The notes: a model not told the origin generated them from the letters alone. A stretch of DNA of 47,780 nt from a virus (IMGVR_UViG_3300042914_004527:1-47780), one strand, 5' to 3'; positions 2 through 37,193 are shown, counted from the first letter of the stretch. Numbers and translations: made by a program.

Positions 2-709
2 TTGTTTATGAGATCTAGTTTCAACATCCCAAAGTATGTAACCATGTCCTTTAACTTTTTCTCCGAAGTCTTGCATTATCATACTTCCAGGCATTACAAT
101 CGGTGTTTCTCTATTATACATAACGTCATATAAATGAATATCTCCACACATTACCACATCACAACCTTCAAATATAGTAACATCTTTGCCATCTTCAAAT
201 TCAAAACCTATGGCCGTTTTTAAACCAACCAAAGGATCATGATATAGTCCAATATAAGTTTTATCGTCACCATATTCTGCTCTTGCTTTTTCAATTTCAG
301 GTCTTTGGGATCCTTCCATATGCCCATAAACACACCAAACAACATTCTCATCTACATAACAACCAGTGTGTTTATAAAAAATAACATCTGGATTTTGCAT
401 ACTTTCAAATATAGGTGAAAGTGTGTCCATCCTGTCTAAATTGTTAACTAAAAAATCATGATTACCTAAAATAACAACTGTTTTTGCTATTTTAGTGCAT
501 TCATTAAAAAAATTAGTTACCATACTTATTAATTCTGGTGTTACGGTATTTTTAGAATGTACAATGTCACCAACAACAACAATACGTTCAGGTTTTTGTT
601 TTCGACATTCATCGAAAAATTTTTGAAATTGTTCCTTATATTCGTCATGCCTTTTGAAAAGACGAATGTGAAGGTCAGCGACGTGAATTATTTTTTGAAT
701 TTTATTCAT
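2..709 (-). CDS. 47: gp47/SbcD-like recombination nuclease, partial (C-terminus off the left edge)
   Basis: This is the phosphoesterase subunit of the phage Mre11/Rad50-type complex (T4 gp46/gp47), which resects DNA ends for recombination-dependent replication. It starts at ATG 709 and stays open for 236 codons to the window edge. The metallophosphoesterase motifs are visible in order: ADLH (Asp12, His14), GD at 47-48, GNHD at 82-85, His157 in YHDP, and GDIH at 189-192. The expected partner, gp46, would lie beyond the left edge. The start is separated from the divergent plus-strand operon by a 58-base AT-rich gap. The family call is secure because all metal-binding motifs are in order; the C-terminal capping region cannot be judged. 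Confidence 0.92.
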   Translation of the reverse strand, partial: MNKIQKIIHVADLHIRLFKRHDEYKEQFQKFFDECRKQKPERIVVVGDIVHSKNTVTPELISMVTNFFNECTKIAKTVVILGNHDFLVNNLDRMDTLSPIFESMQNPDVIFYKHTGCYVDENVVWCVYGHMEGSQRPEIEKARAEYGDDKTYIGLYHDPLVGLKTAIGFEFEDGKDVTIFEGCDVVMCGDIHLYDVMYNRETPIVMPGSMIMQDFGEKVKGHGYILWDVETRSHKQ

Positions 710-767: not shown

Positions 768-1466
768 ATGTCAATAATTGATGATTACGATTGGGTACTA
801 AACCCCGAAGAAATTAAAAAAATAGATTTTGTTCCGGGTAGAAAATATGCAATCAAAAGCGGTAATAATTGGGATATTTTAATATTTCAGAAGTTTGACC
901 CTGAACACAGATTAGATTTTTATCAAAATAATAATAATGAAACTTATGAAGCTTACATTTTTAAAGATGAAGACGGTTACTCAACAAGTACTTTTGGTAA
1001 GTCACATCTTGAAGATTTAGCTTCCAAAGGCCTTGTTAAAGTTTTTAAAGAAGGTTTTTCTTGGAAAAATGAACTACATATTCAAAAAAGTTCTTTAGAT
1101 AGTAAAGGTTTACCGGTACTAAAAGGTAATTTTATTATTTTATTTTATAACGGTATTGATATTAAGGAAACCTATAAACTTCAAAAAAAATTATTTAAAT
1201 TAGGATTTTCTTGGTATGAACTTGGCCAAAATTTATTAACAAATAAAGAAGTTGATTCAAAAATTTTTACCATAGAATCTTTAAATTGGGATACTACAAA
1301 ATATACTTATGAAAAGATGGATGCCAACCAAAGAAATAAGAAATTATTATTAATATCAACTTTTAAAAACTTAGATGACGATAGAGATAAAGAAAGGCGT
1401 TTATCTTTTGTACATGATCACGATATTGAAGTTATTGATGGTTACGATTTATTATCCAAAATATGA
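768..1466 (+). CDS. Hypothetical cytoplasmic protein, first gene of the secreted-protein operon
   Basis: I do not recognise this 232-residue protein. It has no signal peptide or membrane segment and is acidic and lysine-rich like typical phage accessory proteins. The N-terminal part (residues 1-100) has a pattern of short beta strands. The C-terminal part ends in a charged stretch (KNLDDDRDKERRL) followed by hydrophobic strands. Its stop codon overlaps the start of the next gene in an ATGA junction, so it is probably translationally coupled to the secreted-protein genes downstream. That coupling suggests a shared operon but not a shared function. It differs from the following five genes in lacking an export signal. 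Confidence 0.75.
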   Translation: MSIIDDYDWVLNPEEIKKIDFVPGRKYAIKSGNNWDILIFQKFDPEHRLDFYQNNNNETYEAYIFKDEDGYSTSTFGKSHLEDLASKGLVKVFKEGFSWKNELHIQKSSLDSKGLPVLKGNFIILFYNGIDIKETYKLQKKLFKLGFSWYELGQNLLTNKEVDSKIFTIESLNWDTTKYTYEKMDANQRNKKLLLISTFKNLDDDRDKERRLSFVHDHDIEVIDGYDLLSKI

Positions 1467-2059
1467 AAAGATTTTTAGTAGTTATACTCATCTTAATTAG
1501 TAATTTTATTTACGGTCAATGTGTAGGTAACCAAACATTTACATTAAATCCACCTCCTCCAGCTGGTGGGTATACCCCAGGTACTGTAGTAACAGTGTGT
1601 TACACCATGAATGGTTGGCCAGGTTTAAATGTTGGTTCAAATTGGTTAGAAGGTTTCGATATTAACTTAGGCTCAGGTTGGACGAACCTACAGCAAATGG
1701 CAGCACCAGCAAATTGTGGGGGAGGTAGTGGGCAATGGGTATGGGTATTTAATAATCTAACACCAAATGGTGCGGTTGGGCCAGGTTGGTTTTTTGATTC
1801 TGGTATTAATGGCCCACTTAATGGCATCCCTTCCGATGATTGGGGAGATGAGGGAACAACTTGTGTTTGGAGTTTTTGCTTTCAAGTTACTGTTGCAAAT
1901 AGTTGTACACCACAAAGTTTGTTAATTCAAGTGACTGCAGGTGCTGACGGTACTTGGGGGAATTGGATTAATAACTCTTGTCCTACAGTGCCTTTTCCAA
2001 TTTACAATGGTGTAATAAACACTACATTACCTAATATAACAAATATAAGTCACAATTAA
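1463..2059 (+). CDS. Secreted protein with conserved C-terminal LPNITNISHN motif
   Basis: This 198-residue protein begins with a signal peptide (MKRFLVVILILISNFIYG, then QC). The mature part is glycine-, tryptophan- and cysteine-rich, with repeated GW and NW pairs and about seven cysteines that could form disulfides after export. Its composition resembles secreted proteins of free-living Bacteroidota, and its DNA looks richer in G and C than its neighbours, which suggests acquisition from a host. The last ten residues, LPNITNISHN, match the last ten of the protein at 3967-4527 (LPILSPIGHN). Both genes sit directly upstream of a gene encoding a T9SS sorting domain. Only three bases separate it from the next gene. 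The function is unknown; a surface or extracellular role is inferred. Confidence 0.8.
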   Translation: MKRFLVVILILISNFIYGQCVGNQTFTLNPPPPAGGYTPGTVVTVCYTMNGWPGLNVGSNWLEGFDINLGSGWTNLQQMAAPANCGGGSGQWVWVFNNLTPNGAVGPGWFFDSGINGPLNGIPSDDWGDEGTTCVWSFCFQVTVANSCTPQSLLIQVTAGADGTWGNWINNSCPTVPFPIYNGVINTTLPNITNISHN

Positions 2060-2062
2060 TTT

Positions 2063-3307
2063 ATGAAAAAGTTTTTACTATTTTTTTGCTTAATAACAAC
2101 CAATTTATTCGCCAATGAAATACCTAATCTATTGTGTATTGAACTACAAGGTAATAATAGTGCTGATGAAACTGTAATATATTTTGACCCATTAGGAAGT
2201 GATAGTTTCAATCTAAGCAGTGACGGTGTAAAGATGTTAGCGGCATTACCAGGTGTCCCAAGTATTTACACTATAATAGATAATGAAAAATTGGCCATCA
2301 ACGTTATGGGTCAATTAAATAAAGATTTTAAAATACCATTAGGCCTTTATATACAAACATTGGCAAATTACACAATAACAGTTTCTGACTTTAGTAGTTT
2401 TCCACCCAGTAGTATGATTTATATTGAAGATTCTATTACAGGTTTAAAACAAAACCTAAGAATAAACAACAGTGTTACTGTTTCACTAACTCCAGGTACA
2501 TTTAACAATAGGTTTTTTATACATATACACCCACCTCTTACTGTGGCGGGAATCGTAGAACCTTGCCAGGTACAATCTGTTTTACATGGTAGTGGTTTAA
2601 TTGTCACTCAATATTTAAGTAATTTTTTAGATGTTGATATCACTTTGATTAACTCAGAAAACGATACTTTGGGTACTGTTACCGATTTTAGTGGTGAATC
2701 TGATACGATATTTTTTTTATTGACATCTGGAAACTATAAAATGTTGTTACAAATAGATGGTTTTATAATAGAGGATTGGGTTACAATCCCAAATACTAAC
2801 TTTGTTAAAATACAATTTAATTACATAAATCCAATTATTGGAATAATAAATACCCCGATTATTTTTTATGCAACAATTATTAATGGAGTAAGTCAGATAT
2901 GGGATTTTGGTGATGGTTCAGCGGTTGACTCCACCATTTCAACAACGGTTTCACATGTTTATAACCAAGTTGGTACTTATGTTGTTAAATTAAAATCAAG
3001 CAATGGTATTTGTGTTTCCGAAGATTCGGTACTTGTTGAAATTTCGGATCCATCTGGTTTTTTTTCAGAAACAAATAAAACTGTAGATGTTTTTACTGAT
3101 AGAAATTTTATTTTTTTAAATTTTAAAAATGTCACAGAAAAAAGTGGTGATATTAAAATTTACAATATAACTGGCCAATGTGTTAAAAAATTTAACAATA
3201 TTTTATTTGTTGGTACACAAACTTTTGAAGTCGGTGACATTGTTTCTGGTAATTATATAGTTACAATAGGTAATAACATAACAAAACGTATTCTTATGAT
3301 AAATTAA
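2063..3307 (+). CDS. Secreted PKD-domain protein with type A T9SS C-terminal sorting domain
   Basis: This 414-residue protein has a signal peptide (MKKFLLFFCLITTNLFA). It contains a PKD-type beta-sandwich around residues 265-330, recognisable by WDFGDGS followed by the HVYNQVGTYVVKL strand. Residues about 340-414 look like a type A (Por secretion system) C-terminal sorting domain: a short strand, IKIYNITGQCVKKF, a VGxxTFEVGDIVSGNYIV segment and a terminal KRILMIN. Such domains direct export across the outer membrane through the T9SS of Bacteroidota and attachment to the surface. Phages do not encode a T9SS, so this product would depend on the host machinery. It lies in a tight operon with other secreted proteins. 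The domain call is confident; a role in adhesion or exclusion is inference. Confidence 0.85.
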   Translation: MKKFLLFFCLITTNLFANEIPNLLCIELQGNNSADETVIYFDPLGSDSFNLSSDGVKMLAALPGVPSIYTIIDNEKLAINVMGQLNKDFKIPLGLYIQTLANYTITVSDFSSFPPSSMIYIEDSITGLKQNLRINNSVTVSLTPGTFNNRFFIHIHPPLTVAGIVEPCQVQSVLHGSGLIVTQYLSNFLDVDITLINSENDTLGTVTDFSGESDTIFFLLTSGNYKMLLQIDGFIIEDWVTIPNTNFVKIQFNYINPIIGIINTPIIFYATIINGVSQIWDFGDGSAVDSTISTTVSHVYNQVGTYVVKLKSSNGICVSEDSVLVEISDPSGFFSETNKTVDVFTDRNFIFLNFKNVTEKSGDIKIYNITGQCVKKFNNILFVGTQTFEVGDIVSGNYIVTIGNNITKRILMIN

Positions 3308-3318
3308 AAAAAATAAAA

Positions 3319-3849
3319 ATGACAGCACTTAGAACTTTAATTACTACAATGTTTTTTCTGTGTTTAAATATGATTTATGCGCAATGTGACAGTGTACATG
3401 AAATTACTTCTACAAAATTAATTAGTGATAATGCTGAAGAAGTTGAGTTTTCATTATGTTATGAAGATAGCTCTGATTTTTTGATCGTAAAGCAATACTA
3501 TAAAAATAAATCAAGTTTATTAGAACCAAAATTAATTAAAAACACTTTTGAGGGTGACTATTTGTTACAAAACAAACGTCTTATTCTATTCACCACAGAC
3601 AAAAGTAAATTCCAATTAAAATTAGTTAAAGAAGAAAAAACTTTTAATTTTTTAGAAAACGATGATGTGGTTGTTTATTCCTATTATGAGGCCTCACGAA
3701 AAAAACTTAAATTTATTTTATTAAATAACGTAAATCTTATTGATATTGTAAAAGACAATGAAATACAAACTTTTGAGATAACATACCCAAAAGCAGTGGA
3801 ACTTTATCAAATGACTTATCAATATTTTAAATGGAAAGGATGGAAATAA
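3319..3849 (+). CDS. Secreted protein of unknown function
   Basis: This 176-residue protein has a signal peptide ending near MIYAQ (residues 18-22), followed by a single early cysteine (CDS). The mature part is mostly predicted beta strand, with alternating hydrophobic and charged residues (KLISDNAEEVEFSLCYED, KFQLKLVKEEKTFNFL). It has no T9SS sorting domain and lacks the C-terminal LPxxSxIxHN motif of its neighbours, so a periplasmic location is as likely as export. Because QC follows the signal, a lipoprotein was considered, but there is no clear lipobox. I do not recognise the family. Confidence 0.75.
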   Translation: MTALRTLITTMFFLCLNMIYAQCDSVHEITSTKLISDNAEEVEFSLCYEDSSDFLIVKQYYKNKSSLLEPKLIKNTFEGDYLLQNKRLILFTTDKSKFQLKLVKEEKTFNFLENDDVVVYSYYEASRKKLKFILLNNVNLIDIVKDNEIQTFEITYPKAVELYQMTYQYFKWKGWK

Positions 3850-3963
3850 ATGGCTAAAAAAAGAAAAATCAAAAAAATAAAAAGAAAGCTTTTAAAACTT
3901 TTATCGGAAGTGAGTAAGCAGCTTAAATTAATACCGCCTAAATATTGGAATAAACAATTTTAA
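3850..3963 (+). CDS. Small basic peptide, 37 residues
   Basis: An ATG immediately after the preceding stop opens a 37-codon frame ending at TAA 3961-3963, four bases before the next gene. The product begins MAKKRKIKKIKRKLLKLL and is strongly basic, with a possible amphipathic helix over residues 4-25. Tight packing between two genes of the operon supports it as real rather than chance. It has no signal peptide, unlike its neighbours. A cationic membrane-active or nucleic-acid-binding peptide is possible, but nothing in the sequence decides this. Confidence 0.55.
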   Translation: MAKKRKIKKIKRKLLKLLSEVSKQLKLIPPKYWNKQF

Positions 3964-3966
3964 AAT

Positions 3967-4527
3967 ATGAAAAAACTATTATTACTACTATTATTCTCAA
4001 AAACTGTTATGGCCCAATTAACAACGGTAAACCCAGATACAGTTTGTTACTCGTCAACCGGTGTTTCAATTTATGAGGTACCAAACACACCAGGACTTAC
4101 TTACAATTGGACTGTTGTTAGTCCTGGCGTTATTACATCAGGTCCTGGTACAAATCAAATAACAGTAGATTGGTCGACCGCTAACCCTGGTTTAATACCA
4201 AACGCTGTCCAAGTTCAAGCTAGTAATTCTGTCGGTTGTTTAAGCCCTTTAGTTACTTTGGATGTTTTTATTTATGACGTAAACCCAATAGTAGTTACTT
4301 TAAATGACATGTGTGAAGACGCTCCTTGCCAAAATTTAATAGCGAATCCAGCAGGTGGTACTTGGTCGGGAACTGGTGTTTTTGGTACAACATTTTGTCC
4401 TGTTAATAGTGGTGCTGGTTCTTTTAATATAACTTATACTTATAATAACGCTGGTTGTACCTTTACAACAATAATAAACGTAAATGTTATGCAATTACCG
4501 ATATTGTCACCAATAGGCCATAATTAA
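3967..4527 (+). CDS. Secreted PKD-like protein with C-terminal LPILSPIGHN motif
   Basis: This 186-residue protein has a signal peptide (MKKLLLLLLFSKTVMAQ). Residues about 20-100 form an Ig/PKD-like beta-sandwich typical of Bacteroidota surface proteins (YNWTVVSPGVIT, GTNQITVDWS, VQVQASNSVGC). A second repeat-like segment follows around 108-172 (CEDAPCQNLIANPAGGTWSG, GSFNITYTYNNAGC). The C-terminus LPILSPIGHN matches that of the protein at 1463-2059. One base separates its stop from the next gene, which carries a type B T9SS sorting domain. This repeats the arrangement seen upstream: motif-bearing secreted protein, then sorting-domain protein. The PKD-like call is confident; the meaning of the C-terminal motif is unknown. 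Confidence 0.8.
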   Translation: MKKLLLLLLFSKTVMAQLTTVNPDTVCYSSTGVSIYEVPNTPGLTYNWTVVSPGVITSGPGTNQITVDWSTANPGLIPNAVQVQASNSVGCLSPLVTLDVFIYDVNPIVVTLNDMCEDAPCQNLIANPAGGTWSGTGVFGTTFCPVNSGAGSFNITYTYNNAGCTFTTIINVNVMQLPILSPIGHN

Positions 4528-4528
4528 T

Positions 4529-5104
4529 ATGCGATTAATTTTATTACTTTTCTTATTTATAAATTTCAATCTTTATTCACAAAACCAAACAATAGAATTA
4601 TGTGAAGATAGTAACAATACTTTTACATACAATTCGATTGGTTCGCCTGATTGTGAATATTATTGGGAAATTAAATTAAACAATTGGCCAATCTTTTCTT
4701 TTACGGGTAAAGAAATGACATATACCTTTAAGGATGTTGGTGATTATAAAATAATTCTTTTTTCTGAAAACACATTATATTGTAGGTCTGAACCTGAAAT
4801 TTACGATGTTAAAGTAATAAATTGTAGAATCCCGATTATCACAATACCAAACGCTTTTACACCAAATAGTAATAATCTCAATGATATTTGGCAACCAATA
4901 TCTTCTTACATGGCAGAAATAAAAATTTTTGTTTACAATAAATGGGGTGGTTTGGTTTTTGCAACTGAAAATTTTAATGACTTTTGGGATGGAAAACTTA
5001 ACGGTGATGATTGCCCATCTGGTGTCTATGTTTATTATGTTGAATATAAAACAATTAAAGGTTTTAACGGATATAAAAGAGGTACCGTAACTTTATACCG
5101 TTAA
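4529..5104 (+). CDS. Secreted protein with type B (gliding-motility-associated) T9SS C-terminal domain
   Basis: This 191-residue protein has a signal peptide (MRLILLLFLFINFNLYSQ), one PKD-like domain (residues about 25-95) and a textbook type B T9SS sorting domain from about residue 105 to the end. The landmarks are IPNAFTPNSNNLNDIW, IFVYNKWGGLVF, FWDGKLNGDDCPSGVYVYYV and the terminal GTVTLYR. In Flavobacterium this domain class is found on SprB and related surface adhesins exported by the T9SS. The protein is short: little more than a carrier domain plus one PKD unit. Its 3' end overlaps the convergent minus-strand Mom-like gene by 12 bases. Surface display through the host T9SS is inferred from the domain. 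Confidence 0.9.
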   Translation: MRLILLLFLFINFNLYSQNQTIELCEDSNNTFTYNSIGSPDCEYYWEIKLNNWPIFSFTGKEMTYTFKDVGDYKIILFSENTLYCRSEPEIYDVKVINCRIPIITIPNAFTPNSNNLNDIWQPISSYMAEIKIFVYNKWGGLVFATENFNDFWDGKLNGDDCPSGVYVYYVEYKTIKGFNGYKRGTVTLYR

Positions 5105-5884
5105 TTTTTTATGTGAATTAACATTTTTCTGGTTATATTCAACAACACTTAAATCCATTTCAGGTTTTCCAATTAGATTGACATAAACACCTTTTCCTGT
5201 TTGTTCTTTCCACAATAAATCACCTTCTTTTGGGTATTTTTGTTGCCAATCAACTGTGGAATTTTTTTCTAATATTTTTTTCGCTTCTTTATTTAAAGGG
5301 TAAATATATCTAAATTGTTTGCCTCTAACTCTTCGAATGCCTTTAAATGCCATAAAATCTGGTGTCATCCAAAATAATTTATCTTTACCCACAAATTCTG
5401 CGTTTTCAATTAAAAGAGCTTTTGAACTTCTAGGATGTATTTTTTCACCAGTTGCTGAAATGTAAATATCAGTCCAAATAAAACCACCATAATTAAAATT
5501 AGACCCTTGGTAAACATATCCCACTTTTCCAACAATACCATCTGCCCAAGTATATAAAAACTTTTTTTCAGGCAGATTTTTCTTCATCCATTTAACAACT
5601 GCGGATAACATTTGAGATTCTGAATTTTTAGGCATTTTTTCATCCATACACATTTTACCAATCTCATAATAATCTTCTGACTTTAAATCAGGAAATAATT
5701 TTTTAATTGTTTGTAATGGTTGTGTTCCCCAACCTAATGTTATAACACCCACCAACTCTTCATCCAGAAAGCAACCCAACCAATGTTTGGTTAATTTTGG
5801 CATTACTTTTGAATAATGTCTTTCTTGAATAAAATCTGTCGCAATAACCCGATTAACTTCTTTTATTTGAAACTGATATTTCAT
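5093..5884 (-). CDS. Mom-like DNA adenine modification protein (GNAT-like fold)
   Basis: The product resembles the Mu Mom family, which converts adenine in DNA to a carbamoylmethyl-type derivative and so shields phage DNA from restriction. Family landmarks near the N-terminus are FIQERHYSKVMP and LVGVITLGWGTQP. Further on come YYEIGKMCMDEKMPKNSES, then FLYTWADG with KVGYVYQGSNFNYGG, the order found in Mom proteins. A basic C-terminal extension (HPRSS, RRVRGKQFRYIYPL) may contact DNA. An in-frame TTG lies at 5893, but ATG 5884, one base after the upstream stop, is the better start and gives 263 residues. It sits in a four-gene module with a P-loop ATPase and a DUF4338-like protein. The family call is fairly confident; activity is inferred. 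Confidence 0.65.
   Translation of the reverse strand: MKYQFQIKEVNRVIATDFIQERHYSKVMPKLTKHWLGCFLDEELVGVITLGWGTQPLQTIKKLFPDLKSEDYYEIGKMCMDEKMPKNSESQMLSAVVKWMKKNLPEKKFLYTWADGIVGKVGYVYQGSNFNYGGFIWTDIYISATGEKIHPRSSKALLIENAEFVGKDKLFWMTPDFMAFKGIRRVRGKQFRYIYPLNKEAKKILEKNSTVDWQQKYPKEGDLLWKEQTGKGVYVNLIGKPEMDLSVVEYNQKNVNSHKKLTV
5100..5130 (+). terminator. Possible weak terminator between convergent genes
   Basis: GTTAATT (5100-5106) can pair with AATTAAC (5116-5122), with a nine-base loop, followed by ATTTTTCT. The stem is AT-rich and lies inside the 3' end of the opposing gene, so it is only a weak candidate for stopping the plus-strand operon. Confidence 0.3.
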
Positions 5885-5885
5885 C

Positions 5886-6503
5886 TTAAACAAAACTATG
5901 TTTTTTAACCCACTTTAATATCCAATTTTCTTCTGGCCCCAAGACGTTAATACCTATTGTTTCCATGTATGATGCCCATTCATTAAGAACGTATTCTCTA
6001 GTATAAATTTCAAAACCTTCTTGTTCCCTAAGCCTAACTTCAGTCCAAGGGTTAAAAAATTTAATATTAATGTTATTATTTAAACAATGATTGGTTATCA
6101 TATTGATTGTCGATTTTTTTTGACAGGGTGTCGTACAATAGTAACCATTGGTAATTATATTATTGTTTAATAAAATTTTTTGTGGTTCCATTGATGAGAA
6201 ATCATCAAAAAAATAATAGTCTATATTACTACCAAATGTTGGCCTAACATCTGTTGTAACAATAATAGAACCTAAATAGTGGTCATTAATTAAAAGTTTA
6301 AATTTATCATCACTACCTACAAAATTTTGACTTAAAGTATTAAAAAATAATCTACCAATTTTTTCTTTTAAATTTTTACCTCTAGCTATATTTGGTGTTA
6401 CAATGGCAACTTTATTACCACAATTATTTCTTAAATAATCTATTACAGCTTCTATTAACCTACTACTTTTACCTGATTGTCTAGGAGAAATTTCAACGTA
6501 CAT
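5886..6503 (-). CDS. Small P-loop ATPase, terminase/helicase-like core
   Basis: This 205-residue protein has a Walker A motif at its start (PRQSGKSS, residues 7-14) and a Walker B-like motif at 96-101 (YYFFDD). It also has a conserved VAIVTPN strand near 32-38 and VTTDVRP near 82-88. This order resembles the ATPase core of large terminase subunits and of superfamily 2 helicases, but there is no nuclease domain, and at about 200 residues it is far shorter than either. It is the middle gene of the Mom-like/DUF4338-like module, with overlap or one-base spacing on both sides. A motor or switch serving DNA modification is possible; a captured terminase fragment is the alternative. Confidence 0.6.
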   Translation of the reverse strand: MYVEISPRQSGKSSRLIEAVIDYLRNNCGNKVAIVTPNIARGKNLKEKIGRLFFNTLSQNFVGSDDKFKLLINDHYLGSIIVTTDVRPTFGSNIDYYFFDDFSSMEPQKILLNNNIITNGYYCTTPCQKKSTINMITNHCLNNNINIKFFNPWTEVRLREQEGFEIYTREYVLNEWASYMETIGINVLGPEENWILKWVKKHSFV

Positions 6504-6753
6504 TTAAATTATGTTCTTTAATATTTTTTTGTAATATAAACGCACCATTAACACTAATACTACCTTCATCTAATAATGTTTTTAAATAGTGGTAATTTAC
6601 TGACCATTTATCTATTAAAACATCATCCTCACCTCTTAATAAAGTAACCCAACGGATGCTCTTTTCTTTTGGTGGGTCAATATCTAAAACGGTATGTACT
6701 TCCTTGAAGTCTTTCCATTTTAAAGTATCACCTATTTTAATCTCTAATTCCAT
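6493..6753 (-). CDS. Small hypothetical protein of the DNA-modification module
   Basis: I do not recognise this 86-residue protein. It is mostly beta strand at the start (LEIKIGDTLKWKDFKEVHTV), which resembles a small SH3-like or tudor-like barrel common in phage accessory proteins. Its start overlaps the stop of the upstream DUF4338-like gene in a TAATG junction, and its end overlaps the downstream ATPase gene by 11 bases. Translational coupling to both neighbours is therefore likely. Confidence 0.65.
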   Translation of the reverse strand: MELEIKIGDTLKWKDFKEVHTVLDIDPPKEKSIRWVTLLRGEDDVLIDKWSVNYHYLKTLLDEGSISVNGAFILQKNIKEHNLNVR

Positions 6754-7913
6754 TATCTTATCATATCAATTTTACCACCTTCAATAGTTTCAGGTGTATA
6801 AATTTCAAGTTCAGTTCTATTTTTCGACTCATCTTTTAGTTTTTGAAATCTATTTTGTGCTTTATTTTTCCACCACTCAATCAAATTGGTTAAATAATAT
6901 CTATCATAATTATCTTTTTTAACCAACTCAATTTCACCGTTACTTGCGATATATTGAAAGACATTCTCATAACCATAAGTACAATAATAATATCTTTTTT
7001 TGGTTTTCGCTTTCATATGACTTTGGGTAAAGTCTGAAAACTCTTTAAACTTTAAAGGATTTTGTACTTTTAAATGGTTTTTTAAAATTGAAAGTATTTT
7101 ATTAAATTCTCTCATCTTTGGGCCCGATGGACCTGGGTCAACAATTGAACCACCCCATTCAGGATTTCCATAATGTTGACGCATAAAAGATCTAATACTA
7201 TCATATACCTCATCACCTGGGAATAGAAAAATATCGGATTCAGTCATACTACCGTACTTTATAAAAGGTTTTAAACCATCATATTGGCTCATACCTTTGA
7301 TATCACCATAAAGTGATGTTGTTTCCATAAAAACGGTATCAATTTTGTCACCATACTTTTCCTTCAATAATTCCCTAATTTCATGAGAACAACAAATTAA
7401 ACTTAAAAGTTTACCACCAAGATAGTTATACCCAAAAGGTTGTGCTGGTACGATAATCGCACCGTTAATCATAAACTTATTAACTTCATTTGCCGTTACT
7501 TTCATACCTTCAAAAAGGTCATTTCTAGGTTTAATGGATAAAACTGGTGAAGCTAATCTAATAAAACCAATCCATTTGTTAGTGTTTGTTTCTCTAACAC
7601 CCAAAGTGACTTGACGCCCAATCTGAGATTCTAGCGGTAGTGAGGTTATAATTTGAACTGCCGGATTAAACAATTTACCATCGATAACTTCGATTGAAAA
7701 TTGCATATCTTTTGGTTCCATGTTAAAATCACTAAACATCATATCTGCATATTTTTCATGGTCAATATTTTCAACCTTTTCTTTTTTTCTTGCCAAAAAA
7801 TAATCTTGAATAGTATCTAGATTATCATAAAAACCCATTAATCTATTTGTTATCTCCAAAGTTTCTTCTGGGGTTAATTTTGTTTCAAAAACAACACTTT
7901 TCTTGTCGGCCAT
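6753..7913 (-). CDS. DUF4338/DruA-like protein
   Basis: This 386-residue protein resembles the DUF4338 family, which includes DruA of the Druantia defence system and relatives in marine T4-like phages. The visible landmarks, in order, are a conserved WIGFIRLASPVLSI strand, the hydrophobic core VNKFMINGAIIVPAQPFGYN followed by LGGKLLSLICCSHEI, and then FMETTSLYGDIKGMSQYDGL. The last third is basic and tryptophan-rich (LIEWWKNKAQNRF). The molecular function of this family is not established to my knowledge. It is the first gene of a minus-strand module that ends in the Mom-like gene, with a divergent promoter region upstream. A role in modifying or protecting phage DNA is inferred from neighbours only. 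Confidence 0.55.
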   Translation of the reverse strand: MADKKSVVFETKLTPEETLEITNRLMGFYDNLDTIQDYFLARKKEKVENIDHEKYADMMFSDFNMEPKDMQFSIEVIDGKLFNPAVQIITSLPLESQIGRQVTLGVRETNTNKWIGFIRLASPVLSIKPRNDLFEGMKVTANEVNKFMINGAIIVPAQPFGYNYLGGKLLSLICCSHEIRELLKEKYGDKIDTVFMETTSLYGDIKGMSQYDGLKPFIKYGSMTESDIFLFPGDEVYDSIRSFMRQHYGNPEWGGSIVDPGPSGPKMREFNKILSILKNHLKVQNPLKFKEFSDFTQSHMKAKTKKRYYYCTYGYENVFQYIASNGEIELVKKDNYDRYYLTNLIEWWKNKAQNRFQKLKDESKNRTELEIYTPETIEGGKIDMIR

Positions 7914-35525: not shown

Positions 35526-37193
35526 ATGGTAAAAAAAACACAAGAACAATTTATCGAAGAGGCGAAAAAAATTCATGGTGATAAGTATGATTATTCACTA
35601 TCAAAATATAATGGTAATAGTGAAAAAATAAAAATTGTCTGTAATTTACACGGTATCTTTGAGCAAAGCCCGATTAAACATATTAACGCAAAACATGGGT
35701 GCCCTAAATGTGGTAAAATTAATATGGCGGATAAACAAAAAAAAACACAAGAACAATTTATCGAAGAGGCGAAAAAAATTCATGGTGATAAGTATGATTA
35801 TTCTTTATCCAATTACGTTTCTTATCGTGAAAAAGTTACATTAATTTGCCCAATACACGGTGTCTTTGAACAAATGGCCTCAAACCATTTAAAAGGTAAA
35901 GGTTGTAAATATTGTGGTGGTACATCAAAGATGGATAATAATATGTTTATTTTTAAATCAAAAAAAATTCATGGTGATACGTATGATTATAAAAAAACTG
36001 ATTATCAAATTGGTAAGGATAAAGTAATTATAACATGCCCAATACACGGAGATTTTGAATGTTTCCCTAGTAATCATCTATCGAAAAAAAGGGGTTGTCC
36101 TCATTGTAGTTTAAGGGTTTTTGATACCCCTTCATTTATTAAAAGATCAAAAATTTTATTTAACGATAAATTCACATATGAAAAAACTTTGTATAAAAGT
36201 AACTATGATGAGTGTATTATTAATTGCGTAGAACATGGTGAAATTAAAATCACCCCTAACTATCATTTTAACAGTGAGTGTGGTTGTAAATTATGTTGTA
36301 ATAGTTATTCTAGGCCACAAACAGAAATTAAAGAGTATATTGAAAATTTTGGGTTTGAGGTTATTTTTAATTCCAGAGATTTATTAAAAAAAATCGAAAT
36401 TGATATATATGTTCCGGAAAAAAAATTAGCAATAGAATTTAATGGTTTATATTGGCATTCCGATAAATTTAAAGATAAAAAGTATCATTTAAATAAAACG
36501 ATTGAATGTGAAAAATTAGGTGTAAAACTATTACACATTTTTGAGGATGAATGGGAGGAAAAAAAAGAAATAATAAAATCGATTATTAAACACAAATTAG
36601 GTGTTACAGATAATGTTATTTATGCCAGAAAATGTGAGGTAAAATTAATTACTTCAAAATTAAGTAATTGTTTTTTAGAAAAAAATCACATACAAGGTGT
36701 TACTAACGCAAAATATAAAATAGGTCTTTTCCATAAAGAAGAATTAGTTAGTTTATTAACCATAGGTAAACGTGGTATTTTAAAAAATAATGAATATGAA
36801 ATAATTAGATTTTGTAATAAAATAAACACTAGTGTTGTTGGTTCATTTTCTAAATTGTTAAAATATTTTATAAAAGAAACTGGGATAGAAAATTTAATAA
36901 CATATTCAGATAGAAGATTTAGTACCGGAGAGCTTTACTTAAAAAATGGTTTTAGCTTTCTTCAAGATACGGAAGTTAATTATTATTATATTTTAAATAA
37001 AAAAAGAGAAAACAGATTTAAATATCAAAAACATAAATTAGTGAAAATGGGTTATGATAAAAATAAAACAGAATCTGAAATATTATCTGAAATAGGTTTA
37101 GATAAAATATATGATTGTGGTAGTAAAAAATTTTTTTATATTTCTAATTCAACAAAATCTGCGGATTGTAAAGCTGAAACTGTTACTAAGTAA
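35526..37193 (+). CDS. Free-standing homing endonuclease: DUF723-type zinc-finger repeats, Vsr-like nuclease, GNAT-like domain
   Basis: This 555-residue protein has four zinc-finger repeats (residues about 5-63, 74-131, 141-194, 202-258), each starting like FIEEAKKIHGDKYDYS and ending in CPKCG or a variant; these resemble DUF723. Residues 262-358 form a Vsr-like endonuclease of the type seen in phage homing enzymes (EDxHD group): Glu267, Asp293 in IDIYVP, EFNGLYWHSD with His311 and Asp313. Residues about 365-539 resemble a GNAT/Mom-like domain (LIRF-like IIRFCNK, ITYSDRRFSTGELYLKNGF, IYDCGSKKFFYI). It lies on the opposite strand between gp6 and gp25, and its last 19 codons run antisense to gp25. 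DNA targets are not identified. Confidence 0.85.
   Translation: MVKKTQEQFIEEAKKIHGDKYDYSLSKYNGNSEKIKIVCNLHGIFEQSPIKHINAKHGCPKCGKINMADKQKKTQEQFIEEAKKIHGDKYDYSLSNYVSYREKVTLICPIHGVFEQMASNHLKGKGCKYCGGTSKMDNNMFIFKSKKIHGDTYDYKKTDYQIGKDKVIITCPIHGDFECFPSNHLSKKRGCPHCSLRVFDTPSFIKRSKILFNDKFTYEKTLYKSNYDECIINCVEHGEIKITPNYHFNSECGCKLCCNSYSRPQTEIKEYIENFGFEVIFNSRDLLKKIEIDIYVPEKKLAIEFNGLYWHSDKFKDKKYHLNKTIECEKLGVKLLHIFEDEWEEKKEIIKSIIKHKLGVTDNVIYARKCEVKLITSKLSNCFLEKNHIQGVTNAKYKIGLFHKEELVSLLTIGKRGILKNNEYEIIRFCNKINTSVVGSFSKLLKYFIKETGIENLITYSDRRFSTGELYLKNGFSFLQDTEVNYYYILNKKRENRFKYQKHKLVKMGYDKNKTESEILSEIGLDKIYDCGSKKFFYISNSTKSADCKAETVTK
35531..35596 (+). repeat. 66-base perfect direct repeat, copy 1 (first zinc-finger unit)
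   Basis: This stretch is identical to 35738-35803, 207 bases downstream (69 codons, in frame). Each copy encodes the start of a DUF723-type repeat. Identity at the DNA level indicates a recent duplication or gene conversion, because the third and fourth protein repeats have diverged. Confidence 0.92.
35738..35803 (+). repeat. 66-base perfect direct repeat, copy 2
   Basis: This is the second copy of 35531-35596, within the same reading frame. After the identical block the two units diverge (Ser-Lys-Tyr-Asn versus Ser-Asn-Tyr-Val). Confidence 0.92.

Follow-up and report, generated by a model that had tools for sequence, protein, structure and literature searches.

The window analysed here, a linear virus record of 47,780 bases, carries its genes mainly on the minus strand. 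Genes b to g (1463-5104) lie in an operon on the plus strand between minus-strand neighbours; gene a overlaps b by 4 nt (ATGA), and the final 12 nt of g lie within the mom-like gene. The features, in window coordinates, are:

2..709, minus strand: left flank, a phage gene for an SbcD-like phosphoesterase (phrog_100)
768..1466, plus strand: gene a, accessory and first in the operon, 232 aa, without a signal peptide
1463..2059, plus strand: gene b, core subunit 1, with a signal peptide, a beta-sandwich domain of ~170 aa and the C-terminal tail ...LPNITNISHN
2030..2056, plus strand: C-terminal tail of b, PNITNISHN (I at -4, H at -2)
2063..3307, plus strand: gene c, optional, with a signal peptide, a PKD domain and a type A sorting domain (Por_Secre_tail)
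3319..3849, plus strand: gene d, a signal-peptide protein of 176 aa that belongs to no family
3850..3963, plus strand: possible basic ORF of 37 aa between d and f (sequence only)
3967..4527, plus strand: gene f, core subunit 2, with a signal peptide, PKD_6, a second Ig-like region and the tail ...LPILSPIGHN
4498..4524, plus strand: C-terminal tail of f, PILSPIGHN
4529..5104, plus strand: gene g, core subunit 3 and T9SS substrate, with a signal peptide, an Ig-like region and a type B domain (CHU_C/TIGR04131)
5093..5893, minus strand: right flank, a phage gene for a Mom-like DNA-modification protein (PF25680, 185 bits; phrog_1384), with synteny kept

By family searches, most of the genes are phage genes, which include SbcD-like, Mom-like, DruA-like, primase, RuvC, exonuclease and baseplate wedge genes and genes for a Hoc-like Ig protein, ribonucleotide reductase, DnaB, UvsX and SSB. 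The Mom-like protein has 55 viral relatives. The baseplate wedge protein is only 28-30% identical to those of the nearest annotated phages, one of which is the 160-kb Flavobacterium phage immuto, grown on Flavobacterium sp. LMO8. The phage of the window is large, and its host is probably a member of the Bacteroidota. The DruA-like protein (6753-7913; PF14236, 51 bits; phrog_19197, 304 bits; 77-91% in relatives) is a phage homologue of a defence-system protein.

The original prediction described five consecutive genes with signal peptides, two of them ending in type A and type B sorting domains of the type IX secretion system (T9SS) preceded by PKD-like domains, and proposed that the products are exported through the host's T9SS. 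All five proteins, b, c, d, f and g, indeed have signal-peptide-like N-termini, in which Lys/Arg is followed by a hydrophobic core and a cleavage site mostly of the A/S/G-Q type, and the hydropathy heuristic used here, which is not SignalP, also predicts signal peptides in 55 of 56 b, 58 of 61 f and 61 of 62 g homologues; the five genes are only nearly consecutive, with the 37-codon ORF lying between d and f. Both sorting domains reach curated cut-offs in Pfam and NCBIfam profile searches: marginally in c (PF18962, 27.0 bits against a cut-off of 27; TIGR04183, 26 bits against 23), with the same type A match in its homologues in L075 (27.0 bits) and L076 (29.4 bits), and in g with 60.6 bits for PF13585 (cut-off 27) and 55.5 bits for TIGR04131 (cut-off 35). 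The CHU_C domain is matched by all eight aligned homologues of g and by nothing in 14 control genomes; its presence in 17 of 18 phage records is no measure of prevalence, because most of these were chosen for holding the cassette. A PKD-like domain precedes the sorting domain in c (PKD/PKD_4; PKD 38 bits) but is only weak in g (E 0.08), and f contains PKD_6 (PF19408, 37.8 bits). By its domain, g is a genuine T9SS type B substrate, for which export to the cell surface is predicted. Pfam and NCBIfam searches find no type A or type B sorting domain in b, d or f, so that export through the T9SS has a known signal behind it for c and g and none for the other three.

The genes of the operon differ greatly in their distribution. 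Viral scans with the b query, the f alignment and the b alignment returned 15, 80 and 35 loci, respectively, and b and/or f are present in 71 non-redundant phage loci, nearly always adjoining g; the order is mostly b-f-g, with f-g-b in some loci. Many of the contigs are fragments. Gene b, which matches nothing in Pfam, NCBIfam or PHROG, has more than 50 phage homologues, and relatives of f occur on at least 98 viral stretches. Gene c has homologues only in L075 and L076 and no match among annotated phages; gene d is confined to this phage and a near-identical companion contig, G001; and gene a, which matches no family, is an accessory of the group with sbcD and mom (61-64% in L070 and L075; 41% in L018). 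The conserved unit is the b-f-g core with a, c and d as optional members, rather than the five genes first proposed. Median pairwise NG86 dN/dS is ~0.19 for b, 0.23 for f and 0.18 for g, values from a crude method with many non-independent pairs; judged by them, all three genes are under purifying selection.

The neighbourhood of the core varies: it lies between sbcD and mom, behind tail sheath and tube genes, or beside other conserved gene sets. L018 retains sbcD, a and mom in synteny, yet a profile search of all six frames finds no b, c, f or g there, which implies that the block from b to g has been gained or lost as a unit at this site. Comparison of these loci indicates that the cassette is conserved, selected and mobile in many large Bacteroidota phages. 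Among the nearest annotated phages, b has one weak match, and the matches of f and g are limited to huge phages known without culture and a single short contig from faeces; the best viral match of b is a GEVED-domain protein of Virus NIOZ-UU157 (37% identity).

The two core subunits that carry no sorting domain share a short C-terminal tail, [I/V/L]-x-H-[N/D/Y/F], with which all but one of the 56 b proteins (55) and all but one of the 61 f proteins (60) end. In the b alignment of 48 sequences, I at -4 and H at -2 are invariant in the 46 that reach the end, and in the f alignment both residues are present in 33 of 34; in each case the adjacent positions vary. In L247/L266/L273/L277, L235 and L255, the place of b beside f-g is taken by unrelated signal-peptide proteins (382-385, 455 and 490 aa) that bear the tail nonetheless (ISHD, ISHN and INHN). 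The core loci contain 1665 ORFs with a length of 100 aa or more, and only one further ORF ends in [IV]xH[NDYF]; it lies in the L235 phage and encodes a signal-peptide protein of 384 aa (IQHN). Because the tail is found on unrelated substitutes for b and is otherwise nearly absent from these loci, it is portable between folds and confined to secreted partners of g. The only tail-less b and f (ending SPIFH and SPIYKQ) share one contig (L312:8001-9149). A 428-aa variant of b in L274/L275 (6645-7931) has an extra N-terminal domain that resembles the one in host ORFs, and still ends NIIHN.

A role of the tail as a general host tag was considered and rejected: P-I-x-H-N-stop has 16 matches in 19 genomes against 15 for the reversed control pattern, and a stricter pattern has 2 against 4 in 61 genomes, with neither of the 2 at the end of a recovered ORF. 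As the tail is not enriched in these genomes, no host receptor for it is evident.

Natural fusions bear on what the tail may do. L078 and L082 encode a single 505-aa ORF with b at its N-terminus, g at its C-terminus, one signal peptide and one CHU_C domain, in the middle of which the f profile finds no match; a diverged 505-aa homologue in L316 matches the profiles of b, f and g in that order. The huge phage LR745206 encodes f and g as a single protein of 732 aa, and another, LR756502.1 (642 kb; L162:11395-16404), encodes a protein of 1670 aa with b, 13 SprB repeats, PKD and CHU_C. This last protein resembles a host gliding adhesin. None of the fused proteins has the tail, which suggests that the tail replaces a covalent link.

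An AlphaFold2 model of b reaches a pLDDT of 89.7 when built from 48 sequences (66, a poor value, from 10) and predicts, with good confidence, an adhesin-, pilin- or cohesin-like beta-sandwich. The model has no PDB match below E 0.001, and its nearest folds, none of them significant, are pilin, adhesin and cohesin domains; by sequence, too, b has no match. A pattern scan of the genome collection finds no close relatives of b, and a profile search places its domain in 4 of 19 Bacteroidota genomes, within large ORFs. In three of the four, the domain shortly follows a signal peptide and another N-terminal domain, and host ORFs with the b domain near the N-terminus are 872-3700 aa long. Domains of the f type in the collection belong to Bacteroidota, apart from two weak matches.

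The plan of the cassette recurs in two Flavobacterium chromosomes (UGB4466, L171:3-3186; nzgw149, L204:4220-7453), in three-gene operons whose first and second proteins have signal peptides and end ITHD and ISHD/ISYD, respectively, and whose third protein carries CHU_C. Like the phage cassette, these operons have PKD_6 in protein 2 and CHU_C in protein 3; they differ in being chromosomal and rare, with larger subunits and a first subunit that is unrelated to b and lacks its domain. Among 151 genomes of the family, the second gene has a full-length match only in its own genome.

Type B substrates pass through SprA, are collected by PorP/SprF and remain bound to it (PMC12618676, PMC9143113, PMC12635249). 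These shuttles are scarce; they behave stoichiometrically and are not recycled (PMC12618676). Orphan type B substrates have a shuttle in common, and some ride the gliding track (PMC12618676, PMC9143113, PMC12635249); in F. johnsoniae, the orphans Fjoh_1123, Fjoh_1720 and Fjoh_4934 go with Fjoh_1677 (PMC12618676, PMC9143113). The type B adhesins of F. johnsoniae (SprB-SprF) have the same class of C-terminal domain as g, which resembles the orphans in having no linked shuttle, and the domains of b and f occur in giant adhesin-like ORFs of hosts; in contrast to these adhesins, b, f and g are phage-encoded, far smaller, split and equipped with I-x-H-N/D tails. The expectation that the phage has no T9SS of its own held for the shuttle family, the only T9SS part searched: PorP/SprF (PF11751) was not found in 18 phage records, compared with 12-14 copies in each of three Bacteroidota host-type genomes taken as positive control, and in the same 18 records no cognate shuttle gene lies directly downstream of the type B gene, its usual though not universal place. 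Export from these phages would therefore need the T9SS of the host. Its predicted use for placing the operon's products on the cell surface is supported by the sorting domains, by the phage genome on both sides and by the failure to find a shuttle in the phage records; the absence of a known T9SS signal from b, d and f counts against it.

We consider it rather probable that b, f and g form a split complex, similar to a host adhesin, that is displayed through the host's SprA with a borrowed SprF-type shuttle and alters the cell surface. All three proteins would reach the periplasm by Sec; g, as an orphan type B substrate, would cross the SprA pore, and a host PorP/SprF shuttle would then receive it, because the phage brings none. 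The tail of b and f would substitute for the covalent linkage found in the single type B proteins of other phages, and would thus most likely dock b and f on g, by piggyback export or by assembly at the surface, unless the tail is itself an export tag. Gene c would supply a separate type A cargo. This reading is favoured by the sorting domains, the near-constant adjacency of b, f and g across contexts, their purifying selection, the fusions, the tails, the b domain in giant host ORFs, the three-gene operons of hosts, the failure to find a shuttle in the phage records and the published behaviour of orphan type B substrates. It is opposed by the absence of a T9SS signal from b, d and f, by some ten relatives in which the core follows tail genes, a place that would fit a virion protein as well, by the lack of tail enrichment in host genomes and by the middle of the L078/L082 fusion, which the f profile does not match. 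A more general proposal, plausible yet somewhat short of an even chance, treats I-x-H-[N/D] as a portable signal, so far overlooked, that would dock secreted proteins without a T9SS domain on a type B substrate and have them co-exported or co-anchored with it; large Bacteroidota phages would thereby assemble a complex of several subunits on the infected cell by means of the host's pore and a borrowed shuttle.

Once displayed, the complex could take up host shuttles as well as gliding or adhesion sites and cover the infected cell, with the result that further phages no longer bind or that gliding or adhesion is disturbed. Exclusion of other phages or takeover of the surface may tentatively be proposed as its purpose. 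If display is real, it may serve instead to improve or alter the host through adhesion, aggregation, gliding or polymer binding, rather than to exclude phages. Host homologues of the adhesin type, the 13 SprB repeats of the LR756502 protein and the pilin, adhesin and cohesin domains (none significant) that are nearest to b in the PDB speak for such a role, which we regard as somewhat unlikely: these are large phages, apparently of the lytic type, with no integrase seen in the window or the companion contig, and a long-term benefit to the host would be of limited use to them.

Virions often bear Ig-like domains. The products of b, f and g might be virion parts, such as Ig- or PKD-like decorations of the tail or neck, with CHU_C as an attachment fold and not an export signal. 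The original prediction placed the operon apart from the virion structural block; that is true of the window, where it lies on the opposite strand to the block, but in relatives the core stands directly downstream of genes for the tail sheath (PF17482) and a tube-like gp19 protein (L077, L079, L080, L225, L227, L262, L263, L318 and L321) or beside them (L260). Other relatives have unrelated neighbours, and in hosts CHU_C and the same domains belong to exported proteins. Furthermore, b, c, d, f and g have no structural PHROG match, and about 95-98% of the homologues of all three core subunits have signal peptides, by which b, f and g would leave the cytoplasm, where the virion assembles. A virion role is accordingly improbable.

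We give equally little credence to a role as decoys, in which an abundant orphan type B substrate titrates PorP/SprF and stops the display of host adhesins, while the exposed domains have no binding role. The low abundance and stoichiometric, non-recycled action of the shuttles (PMC12618676) would suit such a decoy, as would the lack of a detected shuttle in the phage; b and f, their conservation and their tails would be unneeded, however, and the ectodomains are under purifying selection.

Misassembly of a host fragment was the possibility raised with the original prediction. That the operon is host DNA, either misassembled or captured recently, and has no function in the phage, as domains of host (Bacteroidota) type might suggest, has virtually no likelihood, since the companion contig (122,591 bases) matches window positions 1-35,182 at 99.95%, differing by 2 mismatches and one gap, over 35.2 kb that span both ends of the operon; since diverged phages share the synteny at 55-90% protein identity (L070-L072, L075); and since the core recurs in 71 loci under purifying selection: misassembly is ruled out. 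The sbcD-like gene is kept beside the cassette in L070-L072 and L075, and also in the cassette-less L018.

The claim that no phage system of this kind had been described went too far. In Cryophage, Bellas et al. (2020) had already found three genes for T9SS cargo of type A, for which they suggested hijacking of the host's T9SS and superinfection exclusion (PMC7468147), and a paper on crAss-like phages noted T9SS sorting domains in 2019 (PMC6949934). Cryophage and the present phage both encode proteins with T9SS sorting domains, and for Cryophage too hijack of the host's T9SS was proposed; here, the sorting-domain genes are flanked on both sides by phage genome, and a search limited to the shuttle family found no shuttle. 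The cargo of Cryophage consists of individual type A enzymes that vary (endoglucanase, GH39, PA14), in contrast to the conserved three-subunit cassette described here, with one type B substrate and with tails on the partners that lack a sorting domain. The literature searched, a selection of journals that is far from complete, yielded no account of either the b-f-g cassette or its tail, and both the multi-subunit cassette and the tail appear to be new.

Single phage T9SS cargo genes were thus known earlier, and the cassette adds a precise, testable four-residue C-terminal tail. The recurrence of its three-gene core in dozens of phage contigs makes it look like a real but unstudied way of remodelling the host surface. 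If the proposed reading is true, phages use the host's own secretion pore to control which proteins its surface bears while infection proceeds, Bacteroidota have in the cassette a concrete candidate for exclusion at the surface, and type IX cargo of several subunits may be revealed. Phage T9SS cargo could be tested in the laboratory with the cultured Flavobacterium phage vB_FspM_immuto: immuto26A_15 (L343:2692-3420; MW353175.1 12691-13422), two genes after a C-type lectin gene, combines cohesin with a type A domain (PF18962, 34.6 bits). This is a type A gene and not a b-f-g cassette; no CHU_C was found in the immuto genome.

The companion contig (L006-L012) also encodes about nine different proteins that share the N-terminal leader MKNLIRKILREEFDDFDW (at 36385, 51021, 67551, 68667, 82510, 82936, 93897, 94336 and 94908) and five that share a second leader, MSKEMR..IDKFK..L.E (at 88939, 103483, 120431, 121197 and 121796). 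Both leaders look like the leader or capsid-targeting sequences of internal head proteins.
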